Shown: one piece after another, positions 16,701-60,065 of the stretch | How positions within the stretch are numbered: the stretch's first letter is position 1 | Layout of the letters: each line of letters starts with the position of its first letter | Assembly: GCA_034440575.1 (NCBI GenBank) | Contig: JAOTOL010001661.1 | Location: 794,001-858,000 of the forward strand | Reading direction: 5' to 3' | Length of the DNA: 64,000 nt | From: Imbricaverruca yamaguchii | Taxonomy: Eukaryota; Arthropoda; Thecostraca; Neoverrucidae | Program-made: the position numbers and the translations under genes | Notes under the pieces: model-generated | What the model was told of the DNA's origin: nothing | What the model saw: the letters and a program-made list of their open reading frames with translations, nothing else | Databases searched by the model: none

Positions 16701-17795
16701 CTGTCGTGTGTATAATGACTGCCCACACATCATGTGGCAAATTGGTAAAAACCTAAGACAAGGATGAAATAGCACAATTCCATTAACTGTGAATTTACAG
16801 GCCACATTGTCAATTATTTTACACTGGTGGAGTCCCCCAGGGGTCAGTACTGGGGCCACTACTGTTCATTATATTAGTAACATTGAATAACATTGAAAGT
16901 GGCCTAAGCAGTAAAATTTTGAAATTTGCGGATTATTTGAAGGTCTTTAGGGCAATAACAGGTCAAGATGAGCATATCTCGCTGCAAAAAGACTTAGACG
17001 AACTTGTGAAGTGGTCCAAAGAATGGCAAATGAAATTTTGATAAGTACAAAATCATGCATGTAGGTAAGCAGCATATGAAGGCTCCATACTTGATGGGTG
17101 GCCAAGTGCTATCAGTGACTCAACAGGAGAAGGATTTATGTGTTATTCTAAACACAAAACTGGGGGCATCAGAACAGACCAAGGAAGCCAGGAAAAAGGC
17201 ACTGAGAATGCTCGGGGCAATAAATAGGAATGTATCATACAGAAGTGAGGAAGTGATCAGGAAGCTTTACTGTGCATATGTCAGGCCACATTTGGAATAC
17301 TGCATCCAAGCTTGGTCTCCTAGCTATGAAAAAGATTGTTAGCTTTTAGAGAGAGTACAAAAGAGGGCCACAAAAATGGTTAATGGCATAAGCACCCTGG
17401 CATATGAGGGAAGATTGAAGAAATTGAATATGTTTTCACTTAGATATAGAAGGCTGAGAGGAGATCTCATCGAGGTCTTGAAATTCGTCCATGGTCTGGA
17501 GAGGGGATACCTTGGGGAAATGTTTGAATTGAACAGAAATGATGCAATTAGAGGTCATAAATTCAAAATTAAAGTTAACCACAGCAGAACAAGGTTAAGA
17601 CAGTCTTCTTCACCAACAGGGTAGTAGAACACTGGAACCAGCTCCCAGAAACCATTGTAAGTAGCAGCACATTGAACGTCTTTAAAAACAGCATAGACAA
17701 TCATTATAAGAATATAGAGGGCTTGCTTATTTTAAAGAATATAGAACTATAAGAATATAGAACTCTAAAAATAGAGGGTTCAGTATTACAGGGGG
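13740..17795 (+). mobile_element. CR1-type LINE, degenerate, nearly full length
   Basis: ORF1 region: an SGNH-esterase-like domain starts at about 14117 (MVLVVGDSHV, then a stop, then HLDWVFYK) and includes VGVNNIGPARSEELLQDYRA. ORF2: endonuclease at about 14800-15520 (NAQSI, ITEAW, SDHN); reverse transcriptase at about 15700-17050 (QHGFRKGRSC, YLDLSKAFDKVPHKRL, PQGSVLGPLLF, FADY); a C-terminal part at 17055-17700 (YVRPHLEYCIQAWSP, ERVQKRATKM, YRRLRGDLIEVLKFVHG, VVEHWNQLPETI). Several frameshifts and stops, so it is dead. CR1-like is inferred from the esterase ORF1 plus this RT style; the exact clade is uncertain. Confidence 0.92.
16565..16779. mobile_element. Insertion of 215 bp inside the LINE reverse transcriptase
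   Basis: It interrupts the RT between the SSWQKVLSGV-like segment and GGVPQGSVLGP. It is bounded by direct repeats CCATTAACTGTG (16553-16564 and 16780-16791). The insert has no recognised family. Confidence 0.7.
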
Positions 17796-20190: not shown

Positions 20191-20475
20191 ATGTTGCTGA
20201 TACCATTTTGTGTAGCGGCACTCACGCTGCAGTATGCAGATGCCAACCGGTCCAAGCCAATATTGTACGTTCACAACGTGGACGCGGATCTGCTGGCGGC
20301 CATCAGAGAGAAGGCCATTCACAATAACTTCTTGATGAGCTTCAAGGAGTCCCTTGCAGCTAGCAATGCATCTGCAGGCTTCCTCAAGGGAATCAACATC
20401 AAGAGAGGGGCGCAGCAGCTGTCGTCGCACTTTGTCAACCTGGCTAGGATACAGATGGGAGTTGACAAACTACAG
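20191..20475 (+). CDS. CACHD1: CACHD1 exon 1: signal peptide and N-terminus (residues 1-95)
   Basis: The ATG at 20191 has G at -3 and an in-frame TGA just upstream (20176). It opens [18 protein letters not shown], which has a hydrophobic core and an A-D-A cleavage site, as a signal peptide should. The end of the exon ([22 protein letters not shown]) aligns with the human start of the mature protein. Residues 19-65 have no human counterpart that I can align. Donor gtgagc at 20476, phase 0. Alternative: CAG at 20230-20232 could be an acceptor, with the true start in an upstream exon; the signal-peptide fit makes the ATG preferable. Confidence 0.72.
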
Positions 20476-23400
20476 GTGAGCATGTGTATTTAGAGTGAAT
20501 ACTGAAGGTCCGTTGAAAGCTAATGCACACAAAAACCTTGTCACTATAACAAATATTATTCTGACTAAGTCCTGGCCCTTATTTTTCTCCAGGGAAACCC
20601 ATTGCCTTCTAGGTGACTGAAGGCTTGTTTCGAAGTGGTGATAGGGATATCTCAACTATGAATCCATTCAATTAGTATACCAGATTCTTTCTGATCTTGA
20701 CATATTTCCCTACATTGCTTTCTAGTATTCACAAATGTTGCATGAGTGTCACGTCCAGAAAGTGAAGCTGCAAATTTCAAGAAATTCGACTTCCATCACG
20801 ACACATTTTGCAATGGCAGTGCTATCACAATGTACCTTCTATCAAGCTGACGTTCTTACATACGCTTCTCCCTATTTAGAGGTATGCTGCATTCTGTGCC
20901 GAGGGTAACAAAATAATGCATTTCAGAACCTCACCTTGAAATGCTGAGAACATTTCTACCCGTTTGAGTCGAAACATTTTCCGTATGATCGGCTTGTGGT
21001 ATGGTGATCGGCGTTTTGCTGATAATTGAACAGTTCGTGAGGCATGGCAAGCTGGCAGTGTGGTATGTATGCATGTACGTATGTATGTATGTATGTATGT
21101 ATGTATGTATGTATGTATGTATGTATGTATGTGTTTCGCAGTCGATGAACAATCGGTACCTACCATCACGGTCCGTGTGACAACAGTGGACGAATGGCCA
21201 GTATGCGATACCACAGGCGACACGTGATTGGCACGTGTTGTTACAGTCGGTGTGTGATCGGTGTGTGTTACAGCAGCAAGCAAGCGACTGGTATTCGTTG
21301 ACGCATTCAGTGTATGACCGGTATGTGCCTGCATATGACCGGTATGTACCGGCATATGACCGGTCTGTGCCGGCGTATTACCAGTTTGCGCCAGTGTATG
21401 ATCGGTATGTGCCTGGGTATTTCCGTATGTGCCGGTGTATGACGGATATGTGCCGGTGTATGATTATTATGTATCAGCGTAAGATCGGTATGTGCCGGTA
21501 TATGCTCGGTATGTGTCGGCATATGACTATGTCTCAGCCGATGCGCCCTAAAACTCAAATAACCAACCATGTCTCGGTGTATAGCCATTGACCGGCATGT
21601 GCTACCACAGTCTGTTTATGACCAGCATAGGCCACAGTCCATGTATAAACGGCATGTGTTGAGTCAGCTTGTGTATGACCGGTATGTGTCGCCACAGTTT
21701 GTGTATGACCGGTATGTGTCGCCACAGTCTGTGTATGACCGGTATGTGTCGCCACAGTCTGTGTATGACCGGTATGTGTCGCCACGGCCTGTATATGACC
21801 GGTGTGTGTCGCGCCGCAGTCTGTGTATGACCGGTATGTGTCGCGCCCCACAGTCTGTGTATGACCGGTATGTGTCGCCACGGCCTGTATATGACCGGTG
21901 TGTGTCGCCACGGCCTGTATATGACCGGTTGTGTCGCCCGTCCACGGCCTGTGTATGACCGGTGTGTGTCGCGCCGCAGTCTGTGTATGACCGGTATGTG
22001 TCGCGCCCCACAGTCTGTGTATGACCGGTATGTGTCGCCACAGTCTGTGTATGACCGGTATGTGTCGCCACGGCCTGTATATGACCGGTGTGTGTCGCGC
22101 CGCAGTCTGTGTATGACCGGTATGTGTCGCCACGGCCTGTATATGACCGGTGTGTGTCGCGCCCCACAGTCTGTGTATGACCGGTATGTGTCGCCACGGC
22201 CTGTATATGACCGGTGTGTGTCGCCACAGTCTGTGTATGACCGGTATGTGTCGCCACGGCCTGTATATGACCGGTGTGTGTCGCGCCGCAGTCTGTGTAT
22301 GACCGGTATGTGTCGCGCCGCAGTCTGTGTATGACCGGTATGTGTCGCGCCCCACAGTCTGTGTATGACCAGCTGGCCGCACCGCCGCGCGGTCCGGCGA
22401 CCGCCGACATTCAGGAGGTGAAGCGGCTCGCCTCGCACATCCAGGCCAAGCTGCACCGCTACGTGGGCGCGCTGTGGCGGACGCGCGGCGTCATCGAGGA
22501 GATGTTTTGGAAGCACCTGCACGACCCGATGACGGCGGTGACGCCGTGCTGCGCGCTGGACGACCGTCAGCTGACGTCAGTAGCGCGCGCGCCCGGCGCC
22601 GGTGCTGGCTCGGCGGTGTGCGCTGGTAGCTGCGCTGTAGCTGGTGATGTCTGGTACTGCCTGTAGCTGGTGATGTCTGGTACTGCCTGTAGCTGGTGGT
22701 GTCTAGTCCTGTCTGTAGCTGGTGGTGTCTGGTACTGCCTGTAGCTGGTGATGTCTGGTACTGCCTGTAGCTGGTGGTGTCTAGTCCTGTCTGTAGCTGG
22801 TGATGTCTAGTCCTGTCTGTAGCTGGTGGTGTCTAGTCCTGCCTGTAGCTGGTGATGTCTGGTAGTTGCCTGTAGCTGGTGGTGTCTAGTCCTGTCTGTA
22901 GCTGGTGATGTCTGTACTGCCTGTAGCTGCTAGTCCCTGTAGCTTAGTGGTGTCTAGTCCCGCCTGTAGCTGGTGGTGTCTAGTCCCGCCTGTAGCTGGT
23001 GATGTCTAGTCCTCCCTGTAGCTGGTGATGTCTAGTCCCGCCTGTAGCTGGTGATGTCTAGTCCCGCCTGTAGCTGGTGGTGTCTAGTCCTGCCTGTAGC
23101 TGGTGATGTCTGGTACTGCCTGTAGCTGGTGGTGTCTAGTCCTGTCTGTAGCTGGTGATGTCTAGTACTGCCTGTAGCTGGTGATGTCTAGTCCCGCCTG
23201 TAGCTGGTGATGTCTAGTCCCGCCTGTAGCTGGTGGTGTCTAGTCCCGCCTGTAGCTGGTGATGTCTAGTCCCGCCTGTAGCTGGTGATGTCTAGTCCCG
23301 CCTGTAGCTGGTGATGTCTAGTCCTGCCTGTAGCTGGTGATGTCTAGTCCGCCTGTAGCTGGTGGTGTTAGTCCCGCCTGTAGCTGGTGATGTCTAGTCC

Positions 23401-26400
23401 CGCCTGTAGCTGTCCTTGGTGGTGTCTAGTCCGCCTGTAGCTGGTGATGTCTAGTCCTGTCTGTAGCTGGTGGTGTCTAGTCCCGCCTGTAGCTGGTGAT
23501 GTCTAGTCCCGCCTGTAGCTGGTGATGTCTAGTCCCGCCTGTAGCTGGTGATGTCTAGTCCTGCCTGTAGCTGGTGATGTCTAGTCCTGCCTGTAGCTGG
23601 TGGTGTCTAGTCCCGCCTGTAGCTGGTGATGTCTAGTATTGCCTGTAGCTGGTGGTGTCTAGTCCTGCCTGTAGCTGGTGATGTCTAGTCCCGCCTGTAG
23701 CTGGTGGTGTCTAGTCCCGCCTGTAGCTGGTGATGTCTAGTCCCGCCTGTAGCTGGTGATGTCTAGTCCCGCCTGTAGCTGGTGGTGTCTAGTCCCGCCT
23801 GTAGCTGGTGATGTCTAGTCCCCCCTGTAGCTGGTGGTGTCTAGTCCCGCCTGTAGCTGGTGATGTCTAGTCCCCTCTGTACCTGGTGGTGTCTAGTCCT
23901 GCCTGTAGCTGGTGATGTCTAGTCCCGCCTGTAGCTGGTGGTGTCTAGTCCCGCCTGTAGGTGGTGATGTCTGGTACTGCCTGTAGCTGGTGGTGTCTAG
24001 TCCTGTCTGTAGCTGGTGATGTCTGGTACTGCCTGTAGCTGGTGGTGTCTAGTCCCGCCTGTAGCTGGTGATGTCCCGGTACTGCCTGTAGCTGGTGGTG
24101 TCTGGTCCCGCCTGTAGCTGGTGGTGTCCAGTCCCGCCTGTAGCTGGTGATGTCCAGTCCCGCCTGTAGCTGGTGATGTCTAGTCCCGCCTGTAGCTGGT
24201 GGTGTCTAGTCCCGCCTGTAGGTGGTGGTGGCTGGTCCCGCCTGTAGGTGGTGATATGAACCGATTACAAGAGGGTTGAATATCAGGGTAGTGGTGGATG
24301 CCTTGGAATATCGGCTGAGGTTAGACTCGTTATGCTCGATCACATCCATGAGGAGAGCTTTAGGCTTAATTATCATATATGTGGGTCAGTATAAACATGT
24401 ATATGCTTAGGTTGTGAATTTTATCAGGGTTGATTGCTGCTGGTTGAAATGATTTTCTGCCACGGGTTAAAACCGGCTAGCTGAAAACATGGGTTGCAAG
24501 AATAATGGAGAAATTGCACAATTAATTCATGTGAAATGACTAGTTTATTTAATAATTCTTACCTTTCTATGAGTATCAGTCACACTTACCTCATGCCTAC
24601 CCATTATTTCTCAATTTTAAATTGGTCGTCATACTTAAGAGATATTAAGTATGTTCATTCACAGTGACATTCAGCTCATTCTGATGTTTAGCTAATGATC
24701 CGTTTACGAAAAGCAAAAAAAACTCTGTAGTAGTCCTATGCCATGGAAAAAGCAGTAGTCTTATTGCTTGCAGTTAAATTAGCTGTATTAACTAATAGTT
24801 GACTTCGCATTACTACCACATGGTGCATTTTTGACGACATAATTTTGCTTTTGGAAAGGAAATATTTTTAAGAAGTGTTTCAGAATGCTAGCGGGCTTTG
24901 ACGCGAGTTAGTAGAGATGTTTAATATTAATATTTCTTGGTGTGTATTTCATGCCATTATCAGTGTTCAATTTTACCGATCTCTACATGATGTGGTTCAC
25001 GATGAAGCTATCCTTTTTCCGTACAGAACGTTCGTTTTATATGCTCATCAGCAGATTTTTGCATGCTGCAATTTATTTATTTTAACCTTGAATTATTACA
25101 AATATTTTATCTGAACTTAGCTTTATCTATGTTTCAGTACCACATGCCTATATAAACCGCAAGAAAAAAATTATCCGGCTAGAATAACATCCTTGTATGT
25201 TGTGTAAGTCATGCATGTACTGATGTATCATCTTGTGGCTGGTCTGTTGAAGACAGCTTCGATTTTCGCCACATGTATGCTGACTTTTGTGGCATCCATT
25301 GAATAATACTCCATAAGCTATTTCTAAATGGTTACTCACATGCTTCACCACAGATGTAGTTGGTTTTCGACTATTTCGAAGTGTCCTATCGCCAGTGGTG
25401 TGTGCTGACGCTGGCAACACTGTGCAGGTACTCATTGAAGTTCGGTTCTCCGGTCGACCTGAACTCCACCTGCGATATTGCTCCCAAGCTGATCGAGCCA
25501 TTTGCTTTCAATCCAGGCCGCAACATCACGGACGGTAAGTTTCCGCCTCCATATTGCCGGCTTGCTGTGATTGTTGGGCGCGTCTCCCGCACACCCGGAC
25601 CTATTCATCACGGACTGGACGTTCTCACCTTCACTGACGTCTGGTTGGTTGTTCGGGATGCGCACGTACTGCACGGTCGGCTTGTGGAGTGGCCACTTGA
25701 GTAGCGTATATGGAATTTCTAGGACAAAACAATATGTGAAGCCCCTGGCTTATTTGTAGACCATCGTACAGCGAACTCCATCATTTCGTTCTACAAGGTT
25801 GATTTAATTAATTAATGCTTGGAGCGATCAATGACGCAGATGACGTCTTTTGACGTTATTAACGTCGCTACTGTTGGCCTCGGAGAGTGGCGACGAGCCG
25901 TTCTGATGGCACTTTGGACGCCGGCAGCTTTCAACTCGACCCTTCAGAGTCACCCGTCCATCAAGTGGCAGTACTTCATCTCCAAGGACGGCATCCACAG
26001 CGAGTATCCGGCGCACAGGTTCGCCAGCGAGCACGACTGCGCCGGCTACGACGACACTCGCCACCAGCAGGTCAGTGGTACGGCGGAGACCTGGTGGGTG
26101 CACCCGCCACCAGCAGGTCAGTGGTACGGCGGAGAACTGGTGGGTGCACCCGCCACCAGCAGGTCAGTGGTACGGCGGAGAACTGGTGGGTGCACCCGCC
26201 ACCAGCAGGTCAGTGGTACGGCGGAGACCTGGTGGGTGCACCCGCCACCAGCAGGTCAGTGGTACGGCGGAGAACTGGTGGGTGCACCCGCCACCAGCAG
26301 GTCAGTGGTACGCAAGCGGTGTGGACGCAGAGGTCAGTGGTACGGCGGAGAACTGGTGGGTGCACCCGCCACCAGCAGGTCAGTGGTACGGCGGAGAACT

Positions 26401-29400
26401 GGTGGTGCGCCCACAGGCGTGGTAAGAATGTAGGTAGTGGTACGGCGAGACTGGTGGGTCACCCGCACCAGCAGGTCAGTGGTACGGCGGAGACCTGGTG
26501 GGTGCACCCGCCACCAGCAGGTCAGTGGTACGGCGGAGAACTGGTGGGTGCACCCGCCACCAGCAGGTCAGTGGTACGGCGGAGAACTGGTGGGTGCACC
26601 CGCCACCAGCAGGTCAGTGGTACGGCGGAGAACTGGTGGGTGCACCCGCCACCAGCAGGTCAGTGGTACGGCGGAGAACTGGTGGGTGCACCCGCCACCA
26701 GCAGGTCAGTGGTACGGCGGAGAACTGGTGGGTGCACCCGCCACCCAGGTCAGTGGTACGGCGGAGAACTGGTGGGTGCACCCGCCACCAGCAGGTCAGT
26801 GGTACGGCGGAGAACTGGTGGGTACACCCGCCACCAGCAGGTCAGTGGTACGGCGGAGACCTGGTGGGTGCACCCGCCACCAGCAGGTCAGTGGTACGGC
26901 GGAGAACTGGTGGGTGCACCCGCCACCAGCAGGTCAGTGGTACGGCGGAGACCTGGTGGGTGCACCCGCCACCAGCAGGTCAGTGGTACGGCGGAGAACT
27001 GGTGGGTGCACCCGCCACCAGCAGGTCAGTGGTACGCCAAGGATCGGGAGGAGTGCACCCGCCACCATCAGATTGCTAGTGTGCCGATGGGGAGGGGGTT
27101 GGTGCGTACACCCGCCACCAGTAAGCCAGTGATATGATGGGGACAGGGTGGCCATCAGCAGGCCATTGATATAGTGGGGGTGGGGTGCTTGGGTGGCGGA
27201 TGCATCCACCACAAACAGGTTAGTGGTACGGCAGGAACACTGGGCGGTGCTTCTGCTGCCTTCTTAACTCGAATTATATGGCACAGAGGGAATGCACGAT
27301 GTGTTTAATCTCGCAATTCGTACTCAATCCAGTGAAAGGCTCGTACTGGGTGGGAGATTGCACTGCATGCTGAAGCACGTATGTTATTTCGCGGTGTGGT
27401 GTCCCTACAGATTGCGAATATTTGGCATCGTTGCTGTTTGACTGACGAATACCGGCGAGGAACATTGCTCTGCGCACGGCATTCAATTGTGACTTGTGAT
27501 GTTGTCGCGTCGCAGCTGCCCACGGTAAACTGCACATGTTCGTAACTAACCCCATCAGCTCTGATTCGGTCACCCGGCATCCCGGCTGTTGCGCAGTGAC
27601 GCCACGTGTTCCGCAGGTGCACCTCTCGACGGTCCACTCGGCTGTTGCACAGTGACGCCGCGTGTTCCGCAGGTGTACCTCTCGACGGTCCACCCGGCTG
27701 TTGCGCAGTGACGCCACGTGTTTCGCAGGTGTACCTCTCGACGGTCCACTCGGCTGTTGCGCAGTGACGCCGCGTGTTTCGCAGGTGTACCTCTCGACGG
27801 TCCACTCGGCTGTTGCGCAGTGACGCCACGTGTTTCGCAGGTGTACCTCCCGACGGTCCACTCGGCTGTTGCGCAGTGACGCCGCGTGTTTCGCAGGTGT
27901 ACCTCTCGACGGTCCACTCGGCTGTTGCGCAGTGACGCCGCGTGTTCCGCAGGTGTACCTCCCGACGGTCCACTCGGCTGTTGCGCAGTGACGCCACGTG
28001 TTCCGCAGGTGTACCTCTCGACGGTCCACTCGGCTGTTGCGCAGTGACGCCACGTGTTCCGCAGGTGTACCTCTCGACGGTCCACTCGGCTGTTGCGCAG
28101 TGACGCCACGTGTTCCGCAGGTGTACCTCTCGACGGTCCACTCGGCTGTTGCGCAGTGACGCCACGTGTTCCGCAGGTGTACTCTCGACGGTCCACTCGG
28201 CTGTTGCGCAGTGACGCCACGTGTTTCGCGGTGTACCCCCGACGGTCCACTCGGCTGTTGCGCAGTGACGCCGCGGAGCACTGGCTGTTGCGCATGACGC
28301 CACGTGTTCCGCAGGTGTACCTCTCGACGGTCCACCCGGCTGTTGCGCAGTGACGCCACGTGTTCCGCAGGTGTACCTCTCGACGGTCCACTCGGCTGTT
28401 GCGCAGTGACGCCACGTGTTTCGCAGGTGTACCTCTCGACGGTCCACCCGGCGCCCAAGCACGTGGTGCTGCTGCTGGACGTGGGCGGCCGGCCGAGCGC
28501 CCACCAGCTGTCGCTGGCGCGCGCGGCGGCGGCGCGCCTGCTGTCGGCGCTGCGCCACACCGACCGCGTCTCGGTGCTGGCCGTGTCCGACCACATCCAG
28601 CGGCCGGCCGCCGACGCCTGTCTGCGCCACGGCCTCTTCAGCGCAACCGGCGAGGCCAAGCACTTCCTCGCCGGCTTCATCGACAACTGCCAGCGCTCCC
28701 GTGGTTAGTGACCGGCGAGCCTGCCGTGGTTAGTGACCGGGGAGGCTGCCATGGTTAGTGACCGGGGAGGGGGAGGATGCCGTGGGTGCCGTGGTTCGGC
28801 GAGGCTGCCGTGGTTAGTGACGGGGAGGCTGCCGTGGTTAGTGACGGCGAGGCTGCCGTGGTTAGTGACCGGCGAGGCTGCCGTGGTTAGTGACCGGGGA
28901 GGCTGCCGTGGTTAGTGACCGGCGAGGCTGCCGTGGTTAGTGACCGGGGAGGCTGCCATGGTTAGTGACGGGGAGGCTGCCGTGGTTAGTGACGGCGAGG
29001 CTGCCGTGGTTAGTGACGGGAGGCTGGTGGTAGTGACGGGGAGGGGAGGCTGCCGTGGTTAGTGACCGGGGAGGCTGCCATGGTTAGTGACGGGGAGGCT
29101 GCCGTGGTTAGTGACGGGGAGGCTGCCGTGGTTAGTGACGGCGAGGCTGCCGTGGTTAGTGACCGGCGAGGCTGCCGTGGTTAGTGACCGGCGAGGCTGC
29201 CGTGGTTAGTGACCGGCGTTGAAGCCATCTGAGCTTCTATGGGCAAATTTGCACTCAGACCACAGCATCCCCACCTGGTCCATCTCTTCATGAAGGGTCC
29301 ACTGTTCATCCTCCTTGTGCGGTTTCCTCGACGTGTTCACAGCACTGGCCCGACGTGTCAGCTGCCACTGCTGGCCGCGGCAGACTGCTCTGCTGTGGCT

Positions 29401-32400
29401 GTTGGTCGCGACTGATGGTGGCTGTGACTGGTGGCTGTGGCTGGTGGCTGTGACTGGTGGCTGTGGCCGGTGGCTGTGGCCGGTGGCTGTGGCCGGTGGC
29501 TGTGGCCGGTGGCTGTGGCCGGTGGGCTGGTGACCGGCAGCTGCCCGCTGTGACTGGTGGCTGTGACCGGCTGCTGACCGCGGCTGACTGTTCTGCTGTG
29601 ACTGGTGGCTGTGACTGGTGGCTCTGGCCGGTGGCTGTGGCCGGTGGCTGTGGCCGGTGGCTGTGGCCGGTGGCTGTGGCCGGTGGCTGTGGCCGGTGGC
29701 TGTGACTGGTGGCTGTGGCCGGTGGCTGTGGCCGGTGGCTGTGGCCGGTGGCTGTGGCCGGTGACCGGCTGCTGACCGCGGCTGACCGTTCTGCTGTGAG
29801 TCTCGAGCCCGGCCGACTGTCGACAGCGCCGACCAACCACACGCTGGGCCTGGCGTCGGCGTTCGAGCTGCTGACGCGCGTGCCGGCGCTGCGCGACCGG
29901 TCCAGCCAGGCGCTGATCGTGTACCTGAGCCGCGGCGTGTTCAGCAACCTGCTGGACCCGCGCCGCGTCATGGCCGTCATGGCGCGCTACCAGAACGCCA
30001 TCAACGCGTCCGTCATCGTCAACGCGTTCGGCATCGCCAGCGGTCAGTGCCCCCCAGTGAATTGTAGTCATTGGTGAACTGTGGTGAATGCACCACTTCC
30101 TGGACACTGAATCGACGTGCTTACCGAAGAAGTATTGACATTGTGCCTTTTGATACGTGTTGGCACAATCTTCATTACCCGTTTCTAACAGTATCCCGTG
30201 TATATGCATCACGCTTACGCTCGCCATAACGAGCCATGGTACGCGAATATCAGGTAGCGCAATTATAGGTAAAGGTATTACCTATTATATGCTGTATTTT
30301 ACAATTTCAATTGATAGCATAGGTGCTTTTATCGTCGTCGTTCATGTGTGTATCCCTCAATGAGGTATCTAAAAACAGACGAAACGGGCGGTAATGAATA
30401 CGCTATGGGCTCAACAGTGAGTGAAGAACTTTTTTTTATCATAAGCTATTAGGTCGTTATCTATGCTTACGTAGCAATGTGATGCCAGCCGTTGTGCAAA
30501 TAAGCACGGCTTCTATTTTAGGGTGGCTAAATCGATGGGTCTTAGCAATAAATAGAGGTTCCCAAACACGTTAAGTGGTTTTGCACCGAGTGCTGTTGGC
30601 TTATTTGCCAGGTTGGGTCTGCTCGAATTTCGTCACTCTATCGGGAGTTTAACGGAATCACTGTGTGGAATAGACGCGATCTGAATGATTTTACACGTGA
30701 AACTGATTTCCCTGGCGATAATCCGCATTGATCAACTTGGCATCAACGTGGCATTGAGTTGGCCCCGAGCTGTGTTGTGAGTTGTGTTCAGTGTGCGGCT
30801 GCCGTACGTGTGACGCAATGATCACGTGGTTGGGCGGTGGTGTTTGTCGAGCAGAGTCGCAGAGCAGCCTGGAGCGGCACTTCCTGGAGCACATCACCGG
30901 CCAGGACTTCAGCAGCCACAACATCACGCTCACCAAGCGAGTGGTGCCCGGCCGCCTCTTCGTCATCAACTCGACCGACCAGCTGAGCTTCCAAGTGGCC
31001 AGCATGTTCTCCGTGCTGAACAGCACCATGGAGAGCCGGCCCGAGTTCTCGCTGCCCTACTGGGACGCGATCAGTAGAGGTAAGTGGCACTGGCGCCGTG
31101 CCGCCGACTATCACGCTGCCCTTAGCATATCACGCTTCCCCCTATTCATGTCACCACCACAGAAGTGTTTGTCGGGGTACCGATGACGTGTGTTTACCGG
31201 TAATGTTCTCGAAGAAGTGTGGGTTCTCCCCACCCAGATAGTGCTTCTGTTCGAGGGCTGATCAGATCATTTGCCCGTACACACGGTCACTGCAATAATT
31301 GCGCACAATCATGGTGATGTTTGCAATTTGTTTCCCCTTTTCAACTCGTGTCATTCCATTCTTAATGATTACATTTTAGGGAATATTGGATAAATCGCAA
31401 AGCCCATGTCGATATTTCCATATCGGTGTGTCGCATCCGAAAATGTTTTTGGATATGGTGTCTCCTAGTAGCTTTCGTGATTATCCTTTTCGCGGGACGA
31501 AGGCATGCACAATTTTATCGTGAACGGATCTATCACGGAGCATATCAGTAATATGCCCGTGGAGGTTCGAGCATGCAACTGTGTCGGGTGTCATACAGTT
31601 TCACACAGAATTGGTGGCTGATAGACTAAGTTGAGTTATAGATGTGTGCTGGCAAGGACTTCCGATGTGTGGCTGATACATTCTGTTGAGCGACAGAGTA
31701 CTGTGATGATGAGGACTATAGATGTGTTGCTGTTGTACTCAGTTGAGCGATAGAGCACTATGTAGGGACGAGGACTGACTGTGTGGCTGTTGTACTCAGT
31801 TGAGCGACAGAGCACTGTGTGGGGACGAGGACTATGGATGGTGTTCATCGCTAGTAGGTGGGTGAATCATGCGATGGTTTTTCTAAATTGACAATGCACA
31901 CACTACGTCAACTCGACTATGGAAGAGCCTGCCGTCGGCATGCGCTGAAGTTTCGTGGGTGTACTACAGATACGTGGGTAATGCCCCAGTGCGGTCGATT
32001 CACCCATTAGGACCCTCGACACGACTCATTAGTTATGATTGTTTGAGGCCCAATTCGCTAATGTCGAGGAGGACCTGTCTCCGGCTGTCCTGTTGTAACG
32101 CGTCGCGCGTACCACAGACCTGGTGGTGAGCGTCACCCAGCCGTGCTACCACGTCGACTACTTCATTGGCATCGTCGGCATGGACCTGCACCTGCCCGAC
32201 CTGGTGGAGGACCTGACCTACTTCAGCCAAATCGGCGGACGATACGCTTTCATCGTAGACGACCAGGGTCAGTGTCAGCACAGTGCGTAGTGGCCTGGCG
32301 TCCGCGTGCTTCGGAGCTCTATCGTATTTTTTTTTTTGGGGGGGGCTACAGGTTGCTTTAATTTGAATGGTAGGTATTATTATGTGATGTTCATTGCATA

Positions 32401-38400: not shown

Positions 38401-40571
38401 TCAACTGATCTCACCTGGACTGGCCTGGCCTGACCAGACCTGAACAAACTTGGCCTGACCTGGATCTGACCTGACCTGATCTCACCTGGTCTGGCCCGGC
38501 GACCTCGGTAGTCGCTGGTCTATCAACAAATGTCATCTGTCAAATTCATGTCAGCCCCACCAACCAGTACACATTGTACAAATGAGTCCCATCTCGTCCA
38601 CTCGTCTTGACCTTGTCTGCGACTTATCCCACCTTATTCACCTTATCTTGTCTTGTATTGTCTTTCTCGTATCTTATCCTTACCGTAGCTTATCTTTATT
38701 GTATCTTATCTTATGGGCGCTACATGACCAATGTAATCGATGCGCCCTAAAGCCTTAATAACTAACCAACTAGTATCGTACCTTGATCATATCTTGTCTA
38801 TCGTATCTTACCTTTATCGTACCTTATCCTTATTGTATCATATCTTATCTTACCTTAACTAACATTACATTATCCTCCCTTACCTTACTTTATATTGCCT
38901 TACCTTACCGTATCTTGCCTTACTTTACCGTACCGTACCGTACCGTACCGTACCAAAGGATTCAGACCAGCTCCACCAACCAGTAGAAAATGTTAAAGTG
39001 GTTCCTGACATCGCCTGAACTGATTTCGTGTCGCTAACACATACGGATCAGATCCATGAACCAGTACAAAGTGGGCATGTTGATCTTGACCTGACCTTTT
39101 CTGACCTCACATGACTAACGCGTGCAGATCAGATCCATGACTAGTACAAAGTGCGAAGGTGGCACCTCACCTCACCTGACATGATTTTGCAAAAAATAAC
39201 GCAAGCCAACGAAGAAAAGAACATACAGCAAGCACAAGCATTTGTTTCGTTAAGTTTTGTATTGCACCTTGGCATCCGAATTTGGACACACTACTCATCG
39301 ATCCGTCGACCCATCTGACCTTACCCGGCCGCCCGCCTGTGAGTACCCGTCCGACCCGAGCCGTCTGACCTGACCTGGCCGCCTGTGTGTACCCGTCTGA
39401 CCTGACCTGTTTGACCTGACTAGTCTGACCCGACCAGGCCACTCATCTGTGTGTGTCTGTGTCTGTGTCTGTGTGTGTGTCTGTGTCTGTGTCTGTGTGT
39501 GTCTGTGTCTGTGTCTGTGTCTGTGTCTGTGTCTGTGTCTGTGTCTGTGTGTGTGTCTGTGTCTGTGTCTGTGCGTGTGCCGTGTGTGTGTTGTGTGCGT
39601 GTACCCCTGCGCTGACGGTGGCCCGGTCGACGCGACAGTTTCGTGGCGACGTCGAGCGGTGTGCTGGTGGCGTACCCGGGCCTGCCGCTCGACAGCTGGT
39701 TCGAGCCGACTCGCCGCAGCTGGTACCTGCGCGCGCTGGAGCACCCCGGCCGGGTGGTGCTGTCGTCACCCTACCTGGACGCCGTGAGTACAGGCCTGGG
39801 TGAGGCTGGCGCCACCATAACGGCCGGCTGTGGATAGTGGAGGTCATCCATCAGCGGGTGGTCTTGTCCCTCTGCGGGCAGTGTTGTCCGCCTGTGGTAG
39901 CGTCGGTCGTCCGTCTGCGGGTAGTGTTGTCCGTCTATGGTAGCGTCGGTCGTCCGTCTGCGGGTAGTGTTGTCCGTCTATGGTAGTGTAGGTCGTCCGT
40001 CTGCGGGTAGTGTTGTCCGCCTGTGGTAGCCTCGGTCGTCCGTCTGCGAGTAGTGTTGTCCGTCTATGGTAGTGTAGGTCGTCCGTCTGCAGGTAGTGTT
40101 GTCCGTCTATGGTAGTGGAGGTCGTCCGTCTGCGGGTAGTGTTGTCCGTCTATGGTAGTGGAGGTCGTCCGTCTGCGGGTAGTGTTGTCCGTCTTTGGTA
40201 GTGTAGGTCGTCCGTCTGCGTGAAGTGTTATCCGTTGGTGTGTAGTGTTGTTCGTCTGTGGGTGGTGCTGGCCGTCCATTTGTGAGTGGCATTTGTCCGC
40301 CTATGGCTAGTGGATAGCATATGTTTATGAACATTGACGATTGCTGATTGGCTCTGAATTGGTAGCAGTCGAATTCAAACGTAAGCCAAATTACTTTAAT
40401 CACTTCTGTGACCTTTCACTTCATCCGCTACCTGGCCGGCTGCTGGCGACGAGAGGTCGTGATTGGCCGTCGCCGCGGTTTTGATAAATGATGGTTCTGT
40501 GGTTGCGGGTATTTAGCGGCGTCGCCGCGGTTTTGATAAATGATGGTTCTGTGGTTGCGACCATTTAGCGT

Positions 40572-40658
<87 letters not shown>

Positions 40659-43600
40659 GTAGAATTGGCTCTATGGGGACGATTAGTCTAGTGGTAAGTT
40701 GCCCGTCTCACAATCGAAAGATTGTGGTCTGGAGTTTCACCTGTCGCCACTCTTTGCCCGCTCCCAATCGCCGTGAGGGATTGGCGGCGCTACATGACTC
40801 AACGGTCGACGTGTCCTAAAACCAACAACCACCACCAGAGTCGGCTCTACTTAACAAACCAGCCGAGTGCGTCGCAAGGAAACTCAAGGCTCGTCTTTTT
40901 GCTGCACCTGCAGCTGACAGGTGTTCATTGAGCGACCCGAAGAAAACGACTGACGATTGTTTGCAGGGCGGCGCCGGCTACATCGTGACCCTGAGCCAGA
41001 CCTTGAGCACCGGCACCGACGGCGGCACGGTCGTCTCCGTCATGGGCATGGACATGACGATCGGCTACTTCTACCAGGTATGCCGGGCTTCCACCCGCAG
41101 TGCCACCGGTGGGCGGCGGCAGAGGCCTGCGGTGGGGATCGCCGCCACCGCTTGTCACGTTGACTCGTTTTATGCAAGGCTGTGGATAGGACGCGGTTAA
41201 AGTACTTGCAATTGGTAGTGCTGTCGCGTTGTCCTGTTCAACGGCTGATGTTTACACTGCACGCTCCTGGAGTGCTGTGCCTGTGTCGGTGTGTGTAACG
41301 CTGTCACATTGCCTTGCTCGTTATTTGAGTTGTTATTTGAGTTTTAGAGCGCATCGGCCAGGTTTGGCCATTTAGCGCATCGTCTTGTTCCGCGGCTGAG
41401 ATTTACACTGCACACTACTAGAGCGCTGTATGCTATGTCGGTGTGCCTGTGTCGGTGAGTGTGTGTGTGTGACGCTCGCCGTTATGTTCAGCTGGTGGTG
41501 TCAGTGATGGGCGGCCAGTGTCAGGCGGCCGGCGTCACGTGCTTCCTGCTCGATGACCGCGGCTACATGATCTCGCACCCGGAGCACGTGTCTCCGTGGC
41601 GGGACGGGCCCGTCGAGCAGCAGCACGTGTCCAGCAAGGAGCCGCTGCTGGCCAACCACATCCTCAGCCAGCGCCAGTTCGTCTCCAAGATACAGTGCAA
41701 CAGGTGACTGGCACGCGGGAGACGGTGCGGAACAGTATGTACCGGCCGAGTGTGGAAGGAGCAGTCTGACACACTGGGGATGGTATGACGTGTGCGAAAT
41801 GTGTGCCGCTCCGTCTGGTGGAGACTCGACTACCACTTAGGTAAGGTCACCAGTCAACACCAGTCAATGGTAACCAGCCATCAGAGCCATGCTATCTTCA
41901 ACCTTGAAGTATCTGACTCCTCAGGTACGTGCATCTGAACACCAGATAATGTAGAGTCGTGGGCGAAAAAGCCTGCAGTGTTGACTGTAGAATAGAACTA
42001 AAGTGTATGACACTCAGTTTATGATCCTAACGCACTCGCATCTGCTTGGAGTAGTGTGCATACGCCATGGCACTCGTGAATGAAGGCGGCCTTCTCCAAC
42101 AGCGCTACGACGCCTGCGGCCGCTCTCCGCGCGCTGCTCTAGCTAGCCTGTCCTGTGATCCAACTGCCCTGTAGAGACGTCTGACCCGACCGACCTGACG
42201 GCGTTACGTGACGTCATCGACTTGGCGGTGTCATGTGATCACACTGCCCTGGCGGCGGCCTTTGGCCCCATGGACGCCGATCGCTATGGCTCCACTGACC
42301 TAGCGGTGCTCCGCGACCCCACTGATCTGGCGGTGAGCTGAGACCACACCGAGCCGGCGAATGACCCGCGACCTTGGACCGACAGGTACACGGACAACAC
42401 TGTCCAGCGCTACTACCAGCTGAACACGTCAATGCTGGAGGTGGTGACCAACGTGGGCCTGGGCGGCGAACACTGCAAACAGTACCAGATCGTGTCCGTT
42501 CCGGGCACGAACGTGTTCGTCGGCGTCGTCAACCAGACCTGCGACAACCCAGCCTTCTGCGCCTGCAGTCGTGTCAGTGGCTTACACCCAGCCGGCTGCA
42601 TCTGTAGTCGGGCAGCTCACCCACATCCCGTCTTATCACATGACTGGTGCATTGACTCGCCTCCCAGTAGTGTTTCTTCTGCCGGGAGTGTGCGAGATGT
42701 GTGCTCTTTTCGGTGGCGAGCTCCAGGTCGTTAAAACAGTTTCACGGTTGATGTTCATATGGAAATGTATCCAACAGTCGCCAGCCATCCCCTACCCCTG
42801 TAACAGGGGACGAGTAGTCTAGGGGTAAGTTACCCGTCTTACTATCGAAAGATTGTGGGTTCGAGTTTCACCTGTCGCTACTCTTCGTCCGCGACCGATC
42901 GGCGTGAGATTGGCGACGCTACATGACTCAACGGTCGACGTGTCGTAAAACCAATAACCACCACCACCTACCCTGTAGCACTGTTTCTGCGTTGATCATA
43001 CGACGGTCGATCCAGCTGCGCAGTCGTCTGAGTGTACAGCTGCAGATGACAGGTGAACCGCTGTGTTGCATGCTCGTGTATGTCTACATCCTCCCCCTCG
43101 CTTCCTCCCTGTGCTCTGTGTAGCCTGTGATGTATCCCGTCGCTGTGCTTCCTGTATGTTGTTTCTTCTCTTCGCATATATTCCCAGCGTGTAGCATTAC
43201 TCACGTGTGTACTGCAACGACCTGCTGTCTACTACATGTCCCGAACATCCCAGTTCTGTGTGTACCCCACATATACTGCGTGTACGCGGTGCGCCTGTAG
43301 CCGCTGCTGGCACTGACGGGCCGTCACGCCGCCGCAGTTTGACCGTGCCTGCCTCAACTGCGACCGCATGGAGGCGTGGGAGTGCGAGTGTCCGTGCGAG
43401 TGCCGACTGCGCACCGACCTGTGCACGGAGGAGGTGCTCGACAGCCACAGCACGTGTCCGGTGGTGCCCGAGACGGTGTACGGGCCGCGCACCGACCTGG
43501 ACATCTCGCACCTGTCCGACTGCGTGCCGGTGCACTGCCCGGCGCGCGACAACTCCAGGTCAGTGCGGCGGTGGGCGCTGGCAGGGTGTGACTCCAGGTC

Positions 43601-46600
43601 AGAGCGGCGCTGGCGGGGTGTGACTCAGGTCAGTGCAGCGGTGGGCGCTGGCAGGGTGTGCTTCAGGTCAGTGCGGCGGTGGGCGCTGGCAGGGTGTGAC
43701 TCCAGGTCAGTGCGGCGGTGGGCGCTGGCAGGGTGTGACTCCAGGTCAGAGCGGCGGTGGCGGGGTGTGACTCCAGGTCAGTGCGGCGGTGGGCGCTGGC
43801 AGGGTGTGACTCCAGGTCAGTGCGGCGGTGGCGGGGTGTGACTCCAGGTCAGTGCGGCGGTGGCGGGGTGTGACTCCAGGTCAGTGCGGCGGTGGCGGGG
43901 TGTGACTCCAGGTCAGTGCGGCGGTGGTGGGGTGTGACTCCAGGTCAGAGCGGCGGTGGGCGCTGACGGGGTGTGACTCCAGGTCAGTGCGGCGGTGGGC
44001 GCTGGCAGGGTGTGACTCCAGGTCAGTGCGGCGGTGGGCGCTGGCAGGGTGTGACTCCAGGTCAGTGCGGCGGTGGCGGGGTGTGACTCCAGGTCAGTGC
44101 GGCGGTGGGCGCTGACGGGGTGTGGCTCCAGGTCAGTGCGGCGGTGGCGGGGTGTGACTCCAGGTCAGTGCGGCATAAACTGGTATTGTAAAACAGATCA
44201 GACCATGGGGCATCCTTCTATCTGGAATTATGCTGCAAAATTTGTTTTTCACGATCCGTTATGGTGAGCATAAGCATACTACGAAGGAGACACTGTTGGA
44301 AATGAGGCATGAAGACTGCATAAAGACAAGAAGCACGATGTCAATGTTTATTTTGGAATTTCTATTAGGTGTTCAGAAAGTGGTATATTCCACCCTATTT
44401 CAGCAATAATGTGTCACTACAAGTCGTCCATCGCCTGTAAGTTTGACACTAGGCCCTACTCAATGATTACTTGCGATGCAAACTCGTAGGAGGCGCGATA
44501 GTACGGGGCCGAAGCCGAGGACAGCTGTCTGAGACCCGCATCCAAAGCCGAAACTAGCAGTCTAAAATATCGCTCAGCCAAAGCCGAAGGCGATATGCAG
44601 TCGAGCCAGCATGTAAAAAGCCGACTTTGCCAAGCCGAAGCCGGGTTTCTTCCCATATCTGCCCGGAGTCACCTTCAAACAATGCAATTTGCCTATCCGG
44701 TAATGTAATGTGGCTTCCAGCTATTTGCGGGCGCCACTCGCGCGCTGGCAGCCCAATATAGCGCCACTGCTCCATCCCTGTCGCGGGGATGACGTGCGTT
44801 AGTATTGCGCAGATTCGGCTATTTCGAGTCGTGCCGTCCGGCGAAGCTGCTCGACGGCGACGACTAATTGACAGTGACGCACGCGGCCGCCCCGGATACA
44901 CTCGTGGACCCGGGGTCGCTCTGAGCCGGATCCGGGGCCGCTTTAAGCCCAGGTCCCGCCCTGAGCAGGTGCCGCCCTGAGTCGGTCCCACCCTGAGTCG
45001 GTGCCGCCCTGAGTCGGTGCCGCTCTGAGTCGGTGCCGCTCCGAGTCGGTATCGCCCTGAGTCGGCGCCGCTCTGAGTCGGCGCCGCCCTGAGCCGGTGC
45101 CGCCCTGAGCCGGTGCCGCCCTGAGCCGGTGCCGCCCTGAGCCGGTGCCGCCCTGAGCCGGTGCCGCTCTGAGTCGGTGCCGCCCTGAGCCGGTGCCGCC
45201 CTGAGCCGGTGCCGCCCTGAGCCGGTGCAGCCATAAGACGACGGTGAACTCTGAGTGGAGCGCCGACTGACCCGGTCGCGATCACTCATTGCCGCCCAGG
45301 TGCCAATCAGCTGGCGTCGGCCTGTAGTTAATAGTTGGAAGCGTTGCCGACAACGCTGCACTGTGTATACTGTCAGGCACGTGCGGCGCACGCTGTGGCA
45401 GCGAGGGCCTGCCCAAACACCTGTGTTGTGCGCTGGCTTGTTTGGGCTTAGTCCAGGTGACTCATCGATGTTGGTTTATTGGGTGGTTCACGACGCACTT
45501 TATGCAAATTAACGGCTAATGGCGGTGCCCACACTGTTTCACCAGTGGACCGCGGGATTGGGAAATGTCCTGAGCGGCGCTAGTGTCGAAGACTCATCGA
45601 GGTGAATGTCTGATCACCATCTGATTATTATCTGATAATCAACAGTGGCACTGATGTGTACGAGGGGTTGGTTGGTTTTCACAAGCACGTGAGTACCGGC
45701 GTCGGCAGTGAGTGTATCCCAGTACCAGTGACCCTCACGTGTGCGGACCGGTGTCGGCAGTGAGTGTACCTGTGTCGACAGTGAGTGTACCCCGGTACCA
45801 ATGACCCTCACGTGTGCGGACCGGTGTCGGCAGTGAGTGTACCCCGGTACCAGTGACCCTATTGACTACGTGTGTGGACCGGTGTCGGCAGTGAGTGTAC
45901 CGTGTGGAGGGGGTACCCCGGTACCAGTGACCCTCACGTGTGTGGACCGGTGTCGACAGTGAGTGTACCTCCCCGGTGTCAGTTGTACCAGTGACCCTCA
46001 CGTGTGCGGACCGGTGTCGACAGTGAGTGTACCTGTGTCGGCAGTGAGTGTACCCCGGTACCAGTGACCCTCACGTGTGCGGACCGGTGTCGGCAGTGAG
46101 TGTACCCCGGTACCAGTGACCCTCACGTGTGCGGACCGGTGTCGACAGTGAGTGTACCCCGGTACCAGTGACCCTCACGTGTGTGGACCGGTGTCGGCAG
46201 TGAGTGTACCCCGGTACCAGTGACCCTCACGTGTGCGGACCGGTGTCGGCAGTGAGTGTTCGTACCAGTGACCCCGTGTGTGGACCGGTGTCGGAGGTGT
46301 ACCCCGGTACCAGTGACCCTCACGTGTGGGACCGGTGTCGGCAGGAGACCCGACCCTCACGTGTGCGGACCGGTGTCGGCAGTGAGTGTACCCCGGTACC
46401 AGTGACCCTCACGTGTGCGGACCGGTGTCGGCAGTCAGTGTACCCCGGTACCAGTGACCCTCACGTGTGGGGACCGGTGTCGGCAGTGAGTGTACCCCGG
46501 TACCAGTGACCCTCACGTGTGCGGACCGGTGTCGGCAGTGAGTGTACCCCGGTACCAGTGACCCTCACGTGTGCGGACCGGTGTCGGCAGTGAGTGTACC

Positions 46601-49600
46601 CCGGTACCAGTGACCCTCACGTGTGCGGACCGGTGTCGGCAGTGAGTGTACCCCGGTACCAGTGACCCTCACGTGTGCGGACCGGTGTCGGCAGTGAGTG
46701 TACCTGTGTCGGCAGTGAGTGTACCCCGGTACCAGTGACCCTCACGTGTGCGGACCGGTGTCGGCAGCGAGTGTACCCCGGTACCAGTGACCCTCACGTG
46801 TGCGGACCGGTGTCGGCAGTGACCTCACGTGTGGGACCGGTGTCGGCAGTGTAGTGTACCCCGGTACCAGTGACCCTCACGTGTGGGGACCGGTGTCGGC
46901 AGTCAGTGTACCTCGGTACCAGTGACCCTCACGTGTGCGGACCGTGTCGGCAGTAGTGTACCGTGTCGGCAGTGAGTGTACCCCGGTACCAGTGACCTCA
47001 CGTGTGTGGACCGGTGTCGGCAGTCAGTGTACCCTCGGTACCAGTGACCCTCACGTGTGCGGACCGGTGTCGGCAGTCAGTGTACCCTGTGTCGACAGTG
47101 ATGTGTCGGACCGGTGTCGGTATAGTTACCCCGGTACCAGTGACCCTCACGTGTGCGGACCGGTGTCGGCAGTCAGTGTATCGGCGTGCTGGGCTGCGAG
47201 TGGTGTCAGCTGGAGGCGGACGGCCAGACGCCGCTCTCCAGACCGTTCTGCACCGACATGGAGCGCTGCTTCCGCGGCGTACTGGGCGCCGCCTCACCAT
47301 ACGGAGATCGCAGCCGAGGTGAGCGCGCCGCAGGGCCCAGCTGGGTCAGCTGGTGACTGACGAAGAGAGTCTGGACACTTGGCTCGCGCCGCCGATATAT
47401 TGGCAACGGTGTCACGCCGTCCCGGGGCCAAGCCAACGTCCCGGGCCAGCACAATAGCAACCAGGTGCTGGCGTATCGTTTAGCTACATGATTAGTTCAT
47501 TAGCGTTTGGGGGCACATCGTATATGGCGCGCGTGGCGATTGTGACCGATATCAATTGTTTATCTGCACGCGCGCCAAGATAAACAACTACAGTGCAGAT
47601 ATTCTTATGACGGTACAAAGAATAGTTTTCTTGGAGCGCAACTCTATAGAGCACAGCTGTACTTATATTCAAATACCAAGCCCATCCCACGGGAGCTTGA
47701 CTGGCGTGACAGCACGTGCGCCTGCCATTTTCAACCGGTGAATTTGGCCGAAGCAAACTCAGCGATTTATCGATGTATTTCGAAGATCCGATTTGATGAA
47801 AGCTACGTAGTTTTTGTTCACCAAAAATTGCATTGAAATTGACTAGGTTGGCGCGCGCACAGATCAAAACTGGTATAGATCGCAATCGTCACACACTTCA
47901 TATATTTAGCTAAACGACACCCCAGCAGCTGACGCTGTAGTTCAACATGACTCGATAGACCTTGGGGATTTGAAAATTTGGCACTTTACTGCGCGGCTTC
48001 TAAAGGCCGTGTACGTGGCAACATTCCGGCAGAATATTGCCTCAGCAGACCTGACTTTCGTGACGTCGGCGGCAGGAATTGGCAGGCATCGGCAGACTGA
48101 CGTCACGTTTCATTCTACCAGCGTCATACTAGCAGGCTGACGTCATCTATCCAATGCGCCATGAAGCGTCTCTGGTGCTCGTTTGCTACGCCACACGTGA
48201 TCTGCTGCAGCACTAATTAACTCAAGTAGTACCACGCTCGATGGTACCCAGATATGCATTTGGTTTTAGCTCACTTCAAGAAGGGCTCTTGTACTTCAAT
48301 GGTGATGGTTTTTATGGAGGACGTGGTAATGAGGTTACGATAATAGCGAAGCAAAGGAATATATCCTCATGTTGAGGAGCTGAAAAGGGTGCCGAATGCT
48401 GAGGTGTCGACTACTAACTACTAATTCCTACCAGGATGACGGACAAGGGAACATGAACCGAATGGGGTGGGGGTTAAGGGGGTAACGATCTCAGCTTTGA
48501 ACAAGTTGATCAATGACCGTACTGGTGTTGCATAGAAAGAATCGACTTCCCAACATTATTTGTGTTACCAAGCCAAGTGTTGACTTCATTCCCTTCATGT
48601 AACAATAAATGCCTTATGTTAATTGGTGCTGCACAACAGAATTACATAAAGTTGTACCGCTTAAAAAACTCCATTTGGTGGCATGAACCTCCCCCCCCCC
48701 ATAAAAAAAGAGGGAAAAAACACGTGTATTAGATGCGCCATCATTTGTACTTATTTGGATTGCAGTACAGGGCGTGGCGAGGATGGCCGAGTGGTTAAGG
48801 TGTTGAGCTCCCGAAGGTCCCGGGTTCAACACTTGCGCCGCATAGGACATCTCCCAACCCCGCGGCCCACCGGCGAAACAGTGTGGGCAGCGCCATTAGC
48901 CGTGATCGTACATAAAGTGCGCCGTGAAACCGACGTCGGATTCTGCTCGATTCTGTTTTGCCGGGTCCTACTCAGTCCTGCCAACGTGACGATTCTGCCG
49001 GGAGTCTGCTGAGCTTCTGCTGCGTGTAAACAGACCTTAAGCTGTACGCGTCCACATGATATGCTGAGCTTCATTCCGCAAGGCTAACCCAGAACACACT
49101 TGGATGTAATTTATGAAAGGCCTGTTTGGAAGTTCTGAGCTCTCATATTTGTGCGGGCTATCTCGTGTTGTGTATCTGAATGGTTTGGTGCCCTGTCACG
49201 TGGATGTCGGCAGTTACCAACATTGTGCAGACACACTACAGACCGTAACTGCGTCTCCGAGTCGGCGAAACCCTGCGATTGTTGTGGCGCGACGTGTGGA
49301 CGAGCTGCGGCCGGTCCGTTTCCCGGGCCGCACCACTGTGGCGGCGTGCTCGTGTCGGGCAGTCTGTCGCGTCTCGCCACGGACGCGCGCTGGCGGGTCG
49401 CCGCGACAGCAGCTGACGTGCGCCGCGCTCCGTCGCCAGGTCTGTCGGACGCCAACCGACTCCGCTCGGCCTCGTCGCCGGTGGGCCCGGTGGCGGGCGG
49501 CATCATCGCCGTGTTCGTGACGCTGGCGCTGGCCGTGCTCTGCTACCGGCACCACGCCACCAGCCGCTACCGCCAGGCCATGCCGCTCGAGCTGGAGGAG

Positions 49601-59954: not shown

Positions 59955-60065
59955 GCACGATGACGATGACGAGCACGGTGACGAGCACGGTGACGAGCAC
60001 GGTGACGAGCACGGTGACGAGCACGGTGACGAGCACGGTGACGAGCACGGTGACGAGCACGGACA
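59955..60065 (+). repeat. 12 bp tandem repeat
   Basis: gacgagcacggt is repeated about 9 times almost perfectly. Confidence 0.97.

Follow-up and report, generated by a model that had tools for sequence, protein, structure and literature searches.

The 64,000-nt stretch of DNA that we analyzed (hereafter, the window) is from the barnacle Imbricaverruca yamaguchii. The forward strand encodes CACHD1 at 20191..49987, with 18 coding exons that we identified from an open frame, from GT and AG at the ends of all 17 introns, and from homology. The exons are at 20191-20475, 22358-22575, 25428-25534, 25928-26070, 28427-28703, 29827-30042, 30855-31079, 32118-32267, 33437-33624, 34330-34525, 37886-38132, 39639-39783, 40967-41077, 41492-41703, 42386-42572, 43338-43558, 47173-47318, and 49440-49987. 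Spliced together, they give 3822 nt in a single open frame of 1273 amino acids, with the stop codon at 49985-49987. The start codon is probably at 20191; the N-termini of CACHD1 from Amphibalanus amphitrite and Pollicipes pollicipes are longer than that of the predicted protein.

These two barnacle CACHD1 proteins are the best matches to the predicted protein (A. amphitrite, 75% identity with 100% query coverage; P. pollicipes, 80% with 83%). In a three-way alignment of the barnacle proteins, every pair is 78-81% identical, which by itself places the window in a third thoracican barnacle. A solved structure, CACHD1 chain 8s7c_A, is also a match to the predicted protein (E = 1.2e-236, residues 70-1089). 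When residues 1-603 were searched against Pfam, nothing passed the curated cut-offs; below them were dCache_1, VWA_N, and MCP-like_PDC_1.

The reverse strand encodes a Rap1-like small GTPase, of which we found two coding exons, presumably its final ones, at 53100-53189 and 60540-60695. The Ras domain (PF00071) lies in 60540-60695 (E = 1.2e-13). This locus has minisatellites in the intron and beyond it, at 53463-54424, 56771-57221, 59963-60062, and 60784-61072, the last of which is ~89 nt from an acceptor. The array at 56771-57221 has 11.9 copies of a 38-nt unit with 100% matches, which could be due to a very recent expansion or to an assembly effect.

Upstream of CACHD1, at 14151-17750, there is what looks by eye like a decayed non-LTR retroelement. 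It contains an endonuclease/exonuclease/phosphatase domain (PF03372) in 14851-15249 (E = 6.3e-6), and the two open pieces that follow (15243-15680 and 15598-16086) had no match in Pfam. Also upstream of CACHD1, at 3218-4439, are arrays of AGGCCCCCAGGACGAAAAGG-type units with a period of ~20; by eye, the flanks of these arrays, to ~7400, look like old, decayed copies. Finally, by eye we noticed SINE-like dispersed elements in both orientations, at 35676-35830, 40675-40830, 42807-42960, 33085-33250, and 60250-60460. These elements are related to each other, have GACGAGTAGTCTAGGGGTAAG...CGTAAAACCAATAACCA-like ends, and, by eye, resemble a tRNA-derived SINE. ARAGORN found no tRNA in the window.

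Six arrays that repeat their own exon-intron junctions

As a probe for each of the 34 exon-intron junctions of CACHD1, we used the 16-mer that is centered on it (8 nt of exon and 8 nt of intron), and we counted copies with at most 2 mismatches. Six of the 34 junctions had near copies in their own intron, and these were evenly split between acceptors (of exons 2, 5, and 17) and donors (of exons 4, 5, and 16). Acceptor 2 had 13 copies, donor 4 had 18, acceptor 5 had 12, donor 5 had 18, donor 16 had 15, and acceptor 17 had 25. The remaining 28 junctions had no copies in their own introns, and none of the 34 probes had a copy elsewhere in the window. As a control, just 3 of 329 exon-internal 16-mers had at least 3 copies within 3 kb. 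The original prediction had named the same six junctions as places where a tandem unit straddles the exon/intron border, and the 16-mer count confirms this. It had also described the six arrays as having different units, which agrees with the lack of near copies outside of each junction's own intron.

All six arrays are described here on the forward strand, and a slash outside of parentheses in a motif marks the junction. The array at acceptor 2 (22357/22358) extends over 21589..22370 and has a unit of ~30-34 nt, with 13 nt of exon. At donor 4 (26070/26071), the array is at 26055..27071, with decayed units to 27249; its 46-nt unit includes CAG/GTCAGT, and 16 nt are from the exon. The array at acceptor 5 (28426/28427) covers 27583..28452, and its 56-nt unit, with CGCAG/GTGTACC, reaches 26 nt into the exon. 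This array corresponds to two rows in the TRF output; once these are merged, the 17 TRF rows that we considered become 16 arrays. The array at donor 5 (28703/28704) is at 28695..29218 and has a unit of 24-25 nt with CGTG/GTTAGTGAC and 9 nt of exon. At donor 16 (43558/43559), units of 32 or 39 nt with CCAG/GTCAGTG and 7 nt of exon fill 43552..44174. Finally, at acceptor 17 (47172/47173), a 52-nt unit with GGCAG/T(C/G)AGTGTA and 8 nt of exon is repeated across 45717..47180. So, units of ~25-56 nt hold both exon and intron sequence from their own junctions. The original prediction had given 5-26 nt of exon per unit; the overlaps of the TRF arrays with the exons, which are the values listed above, range from 7 to 26 nt, so the upper limit stands and the lower does not.

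Aligning whole units, we found 23 units at acceptor 2, 25 at donor 4, 15 at acceptor 5, 20 at donor 5, 17 at donor 16, and 26 at acceptor 17. Of these 126 units, 114 retain the GT or AG. Counting the real site, there are 15, 23, 14, 20, 17, and 25 intact sites, respectively, which is in line with the original estimate of roughly 14-30 equivalent splice sites per junction. Loss of the splice signal is concentrated at acceptor 2: the AG is missing from 8 of its 23 units.

In each array, the real splice site is the outermost copy on the exon side, because of the reading frame and because the alignments to the proteins from A. amphitrite and P. pollicipes are gap-free across the six junctions (the latter is partial but covers all of them). 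Thus, as had been claimed, the arrays begin at the real junction. The earlier placement of acceptor 17 needed correction: the frame demands CGGCAG/TCAGTGTATC at 47173, and this agrees with NSSQCIGV in the P. pollicipes protein.

Such arrays are difficult to assemble, so they might be artefacts of assembly or sequencing. We think this is very improbable, as there are six different units, each array contains substitutions and length variants, and the coding exons that flank the arrays are intact.

The six arrays derive from their own junctions. The exon ends at donor 4, acceptor 2, and acceptor 5 are largely common to both of the other barnacle proteins, and those at donor 16 and acceptor 17 are common to the P. 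pollicipes protein (the exon end at donor 5 is poorly conserved). Because these exon ends are shared with other barnacles, the repeat at these junctions (donors 4 and 16 and acceptors 2, 5, and 17) must have come from the exon.

We also compared the edge unit, which contains the real junction, to the other units. On the intron side, it matches their consensus at 44/44 positions for acceptor 17, 30/31 for acceptor 5, 29/30 for donor 4, 15/16 for donor 5, 28/31 for donor 16, and 17/21 for acceptor 2, where the four mismatches are a single 4-nt insertion. On the exon side, one base differs from the array consensus at five of the six junctions, and none differs at acceptor 2. When read in frame, the difference at donor 4 is silent and those at acceptor 5, donor 5, donor 16, and acceptor 17 change an amino acid, as would follow if the letters of the exon are under coding selection. 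The differing base at donor 16 is the outermost one, though, and may simply mark the end of the repeat. These comparisons suggest that the edge unit turns over with the rest of the array, and that its exonic part is maintained by coding selection.

We considered whether the arrays grew outward from the exon edge and rejected this idea, as the identity of the units does not fall with distance (rho from -0.29 to 0.03, all p ≥ 0.14). For acceptor 2 and acceptor 17, the edge unit supplied the reference in this test, and this gives a slight bias toward edge growth. The far ends of the arrays at acceptor 2 and donor 4 contain decayed units.

Exon edges, base composition, and chance

For counting arrays, we required TRF rows to have a period of at least 10, at least 2.9 copies, and a score of at least 80. 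Among the rows that were dropped are one in intron 8 with 2.8 copies of a 39-nt unit, one in intron 12 with a pair of 52-nt units, and those for the arrays of 5-nt and 6-nt units close to donor 11 and acceptor 12. We then placed the 17 TRF rows at random within their own introns, with all intron positions equally likely, in 20000 runs. When arrays may reach as far as 26 nt into the exon, 1.14 straddling arrays are expected, as compared to the 6 that we saw, and 6 or more were obtained in 1 of 20000 runs (P = 5e-5). With an overlap limit of 15 nt this never happened (0/20000), and with a limit of 40 nt the proportion was 0.0013.

Part of this excess is due to base composition: exons and their flanks are GC-rich. 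The GC content is 67% in exons, 61% in TRF-masked intron, and 49% in unmasked intron; for unique intron sequence, it is 60-70% in the 40 nt closest to an exon and drops to 43-51% at distances of more than 160 nt. A null for the 16 arrays that was matched for both GC and unit length predicts that 1.4-2.1 of them straddle a junction, instead of 6 (P = 0.0012-0.0074).

Other arrays in CACHD1 are also close to exons. The original prediction had put several more of them within about 5-60 bp of an exon; arrays are indeed there, and the six that we found end at 21, 35, 41, 47, 63, and 80 nt. All are given on the forward strand. In intron 2, a 26-nt array (22623..24255) starts 47 nt after donor 2; in intron 5, a 13-nt array (29417..29763) ends 63 nt before acceptor 6; in intron 10, an 18-nt array (37525..37850) ends 35 nt before acceptor 11; and in intron 12, a 43-nt array (39864..40276) starts 80 nt after donor 12. 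These four do not include a junction. The 20-nt array in intron 8 (33321..33415), which ends 21 nt before acceptor 9, is weakly similar to donor 8 (score 11, with other junctions scoring up to 10). The 21/42-nt array in intron 9 (34009..34288), which ends 41 nt before acceptor 10, is weakly similar to that acceptor (score 10, p = 0.01). Overall, the best score against a junction of its own intron was 4-6 for four of these arrays and 10-11 for two, as compared to 15-39 for the six junction arrays, and the six further arrays do not clearly carry junction sequence. A scan of the other 28 junctions for degenerate repeats of this kind gave p = 0.02 for donor 3, 0.04 for donor 8, and 0 of 100 for donor 11. 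By chance, 1.4 of 28 would be at 0.05 or below, and we make no claim about these three. A degenerate 5-nt (GACCT) array at 38142-38488, which starts 9 nt past donor 11, was left uncounted owing to its short period.

Having 6 of the 10 non-junction arrays within 80 nt of an exon is more than the 1.95 expected after matching for GC (P = 0.004). Because the excess of straddling arrays survives GC matching, and because so many of the other arrays are near exons, something beyond GC may be at work. On the other hand, these P values are optimistic, since they come from one gene that was picked for its striking appearance. Also, the excess is visible only if arrays, rather than bases, are the unit of counting: at least 3 copies were found for 330 of 1126 intronic 16-mers (29%) as compared to 6 of 34 junctions (18%). 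We conclude that a bias toward exon edges in CACHD1 is likely but not proven.

One way to account for the bias is that tandem duplication has true hot spots at exon edges, where arrays are actively seeded, for example by breaks or template switching that are tied to transcription, to splicing, or to the sharp step in GC content. This would explain why 6 arrays straddle junctions instead of the 1.4-2.1 expected after GC matching, why 12 of the 16 arrays in the count either reach into an exon or are no more than 80 nt away from it, and why donors and acceptors are both hit, three each. Nevertheless, we consider it unlikely. The evidence is from a single selected gene, and in the neighboring Rap1-like gene, 0 of 3 junctions are repeated. 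Nor do the units point to a mechanism. We looked for a shared recombinogenic core motif; GTGAC occurs in 9 of 26 units, which is no more than the 95% limit for shuffled units (9). There was also no general tendency to form hairpins among the 16 segments that we folded: the array at donor 5 (z = -2.91) and the array in intron 10 (z = -2.54) were the only ones that were clearly better than shuffles. (For the six junction arrays, z was 0.51, -1.18, 0.99, -2.91, 1.05, and -0.11, and among the ten other segments, one was below -2.) With 2 of 16 segments clearly beating the shuffles, we rejected slippage driven by hairpins.

Furthermore, chance would suffice if seeding took place in introns of no more than ~200 nt. 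Suppose that seeds arose anywhere in introns of 100-200 nt, so that many of them straddled a junction, and that the arrays then lengthened the introns. In introns of 100 nt, 6.7 straddling arrays are expected, and in introns of 200 nt, 3.4. The probability of at least 6 is 0.11 for introns of 200 nt, 0.044 for 250 nt, and 0.005 for 400 nt. Intron 5 would be ~260 nt without its two arrays, which fits. However, the shortest introns of CACHD1 at present are 393 and 414 nt, and the 17 introns contain 15585 nt outside of TRF arrays, or ~917 nt each. We consider short ancestral introns to be unlikely as well.

The original prediction had called the arrays hard to explain by chance and had proposed a process that starts tandem duplication at exon edges. 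The first statement is correct for random placement, is weaker once GC is matched, and fails if introns were ~200 nt or shorter at seeding. As for the second, the derivation from junctions and the excess at edges are borne out, and GC could explain part of that excess, whereas short ancestral introns alone would be enough. If the excess vanishes when both intron length and GC are controlled for, then the arrays are simply what one would expect in a genome that has many minisatellites and a structured GC content.

We think that the best explanation, with a probability of roughly 0.7, is that the arrays are "mirages" (a term that is discussed below): near-neutral duplications that straddled junctions in the GC-rich flanks of exons and grew as minisatellites. 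The seed would be a tandem duplication of 25-56 nt across the edge of an exon. Small tandem duplications would arise mainly in GC-rich DNA, and in this gene, GC is high in the exons and in the ~100 nt of intron next to them, which may be part of why junctions are over-represented. Duplications within exons would probably be purged by selection. In contrast, a duplication that straddles the junction should be tolerated because its outermost copy still adjoins the whole exon: splicing would proceed as before, and the inner copies would become intron. Such a duplication would be nearly harmless, and the array could then expand by slippage or unequal exchange, as other minisatellites do. Short ancestral introns are compatible with near-neutral duplication and would take the place of the GC part of this explanation.

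Splicing and related repeats in other animals

If an inner copy were used in place of the real site, the full-length frame would be lost in 102 of 108 cases. The frame to the normal stop is kept in the other 6, of which acceptor 2 and donor 4 have one each and donor 16 has four. Those four, of the 16 alternative copies at donor 16, would add 13, 36, 49, or 62 amino acids.

Could the repeated splice sites be functional, with competition among the copies tuning the splicing or the isoforms of CACHD1? In favor of this, besides the 114 of 126 units with GT or AG, 54 of the 60 intact donors (real ones included) are equal to the real donor by a simple count of matches to the consensus. The alternatives that keep the frame, especially at donor 16, could also be viewed as support. 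Such arrays need not be neutral, as a paper by Lievers et al. (2001) reportedly, from its title, links a repeat (VNTR) in human CBS to reduced CBS activity. Yet most alternatives would forfeit the full-length protein, and the two other barnacle proteins have no insertion at the six junctions. Also, the columns of the unit that derive from the exon are not consistently better preserved than the rest of the unit. Conservation is 0.93 versus 0.93 at donor 4, 0.98 versus 0.97 at acceptor 5, and 0.96 versus 0.93 at donor 5; the exonic columns are lower at acceptor 17 (0.83 versus 0.95) and higher at acceptor 2 (0.94 versus 0.82) and donor 16 (0.97 versus 0.87). We consider a function in splicing to be quite improbable.

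Similar repeats are known from other animals and have a name, neither of which the original prediction mentioned. The repeats in amphioxus Adh3 were reportedly studied by Canestro et al. in 2002. "Mirages" have been described in Adh3, in the globins BflGb6 and BflGb9, and in other amphioxus genes: these are minisatellite-like tandem duplications that span an exon-intron boundary, whether 5' or 3', with AG or GT in many of the units (PMC3087553). Amphioxus PGBD5 is also described as having a mirage (PMC3902484). The arrays in CACHD1 share these features: their units are of minisatellite size and include their own junction, the real site is outermost, and many units retain AG or GT. Furthermore, the unit sizes that are quoted for Adh3 (10-72 bp) cover those in the barnacle.

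There are also differences from amphioxus. The host is a barnacle rather than a lancelet, and one gene has six arrays. The two BflGb6 haplotypes have 3 and 6 units, as compared to 15-26 units per array in CACHD1. In BflGb6, the units at the boundary are reported to escape homogenization, whereas the intron side of the edge units in CACHD1 is mostly like the rest of the array. Finally, RT-PCR of amphioxus globins and data for Adh3 suggest that mirages leave regular splicing undisturbed (PMC3087553). These data, and those on length instability, are from amphioxus, whereas CACHD1 is known here from one assembled sequence. Given the integrity of the gene and these precedents, CACHD1 is probably spliced normally as well.

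The closest human counterpart is the 31-bp VNTR in CBS, which is listed as c.1444_1467+7(16_21) in PMC2630376. By this notation, 24 nt of exon and 7 nt of intron across a donor are present in 16-21 copies, which is the same anatomy as at donors 4, 5, and 16. In CBS, just one junction is affected, and the variation is known as a population polymorphism. Another CBS variant, 844ins68, is described as a 68-bp duplication of the intron 7/exon 8 junction with normal mRNA (PMC2630376). It resembles our arrays in duplicating a junction, but it is a single duplication and not an array.

In the literature that we found, the name "mirage" is used for cephalochordates only, and our search of the literature on barnacles found no report of such arrays, which does not prove their absence. 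What is new here is the arthropod host and the presence of six junction arrays in one gene; the kind of array is already known from amphioxus and human CBS. The six mirages in a single arthropod gene point to a process that has recurred across distantly related animals and that can act often on the same gene. More boldly, exon edges might be genuine hot spots for duplication in barnacles and, separately, in lancelets, so that junctions seed minisatellites throughout these genomes, enlarge introns, and supply spare splice sites for new isoforms or introns. We view this broader idea as doubtful. Either way, barnacle genomes are a potential place to measure the rate of duplication at exon edges and to see how the spliceosome chooses among ~20 nearly identical sites. 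They could also show if such arrays seed the growth or the gain of introns.

Two other reports bear on intron gain. In human segmental duplications, minisatellites (internal tandem repeats) with units of ~30 bp, and ~4 copies on average, are sometimes at exon-intron boundaries; in recent paralogs, these boundary repeats can change splicing and create new introns or splice forms (PMC2812944). These repeats have fewer copies than ours and are in recent paralogs, and it is there that new introns and splice forms are reported. Introns can also be gained by tandem duplication if the duplicated segment carries splice signals (PMC4974935). In CACHD1, we see existing introns that have been enlarged rather than any new intron, but here too a segment with splice signals was duplicated, and the junctions at donor 4, acceptor 5, and donor 16 contain AGGT.
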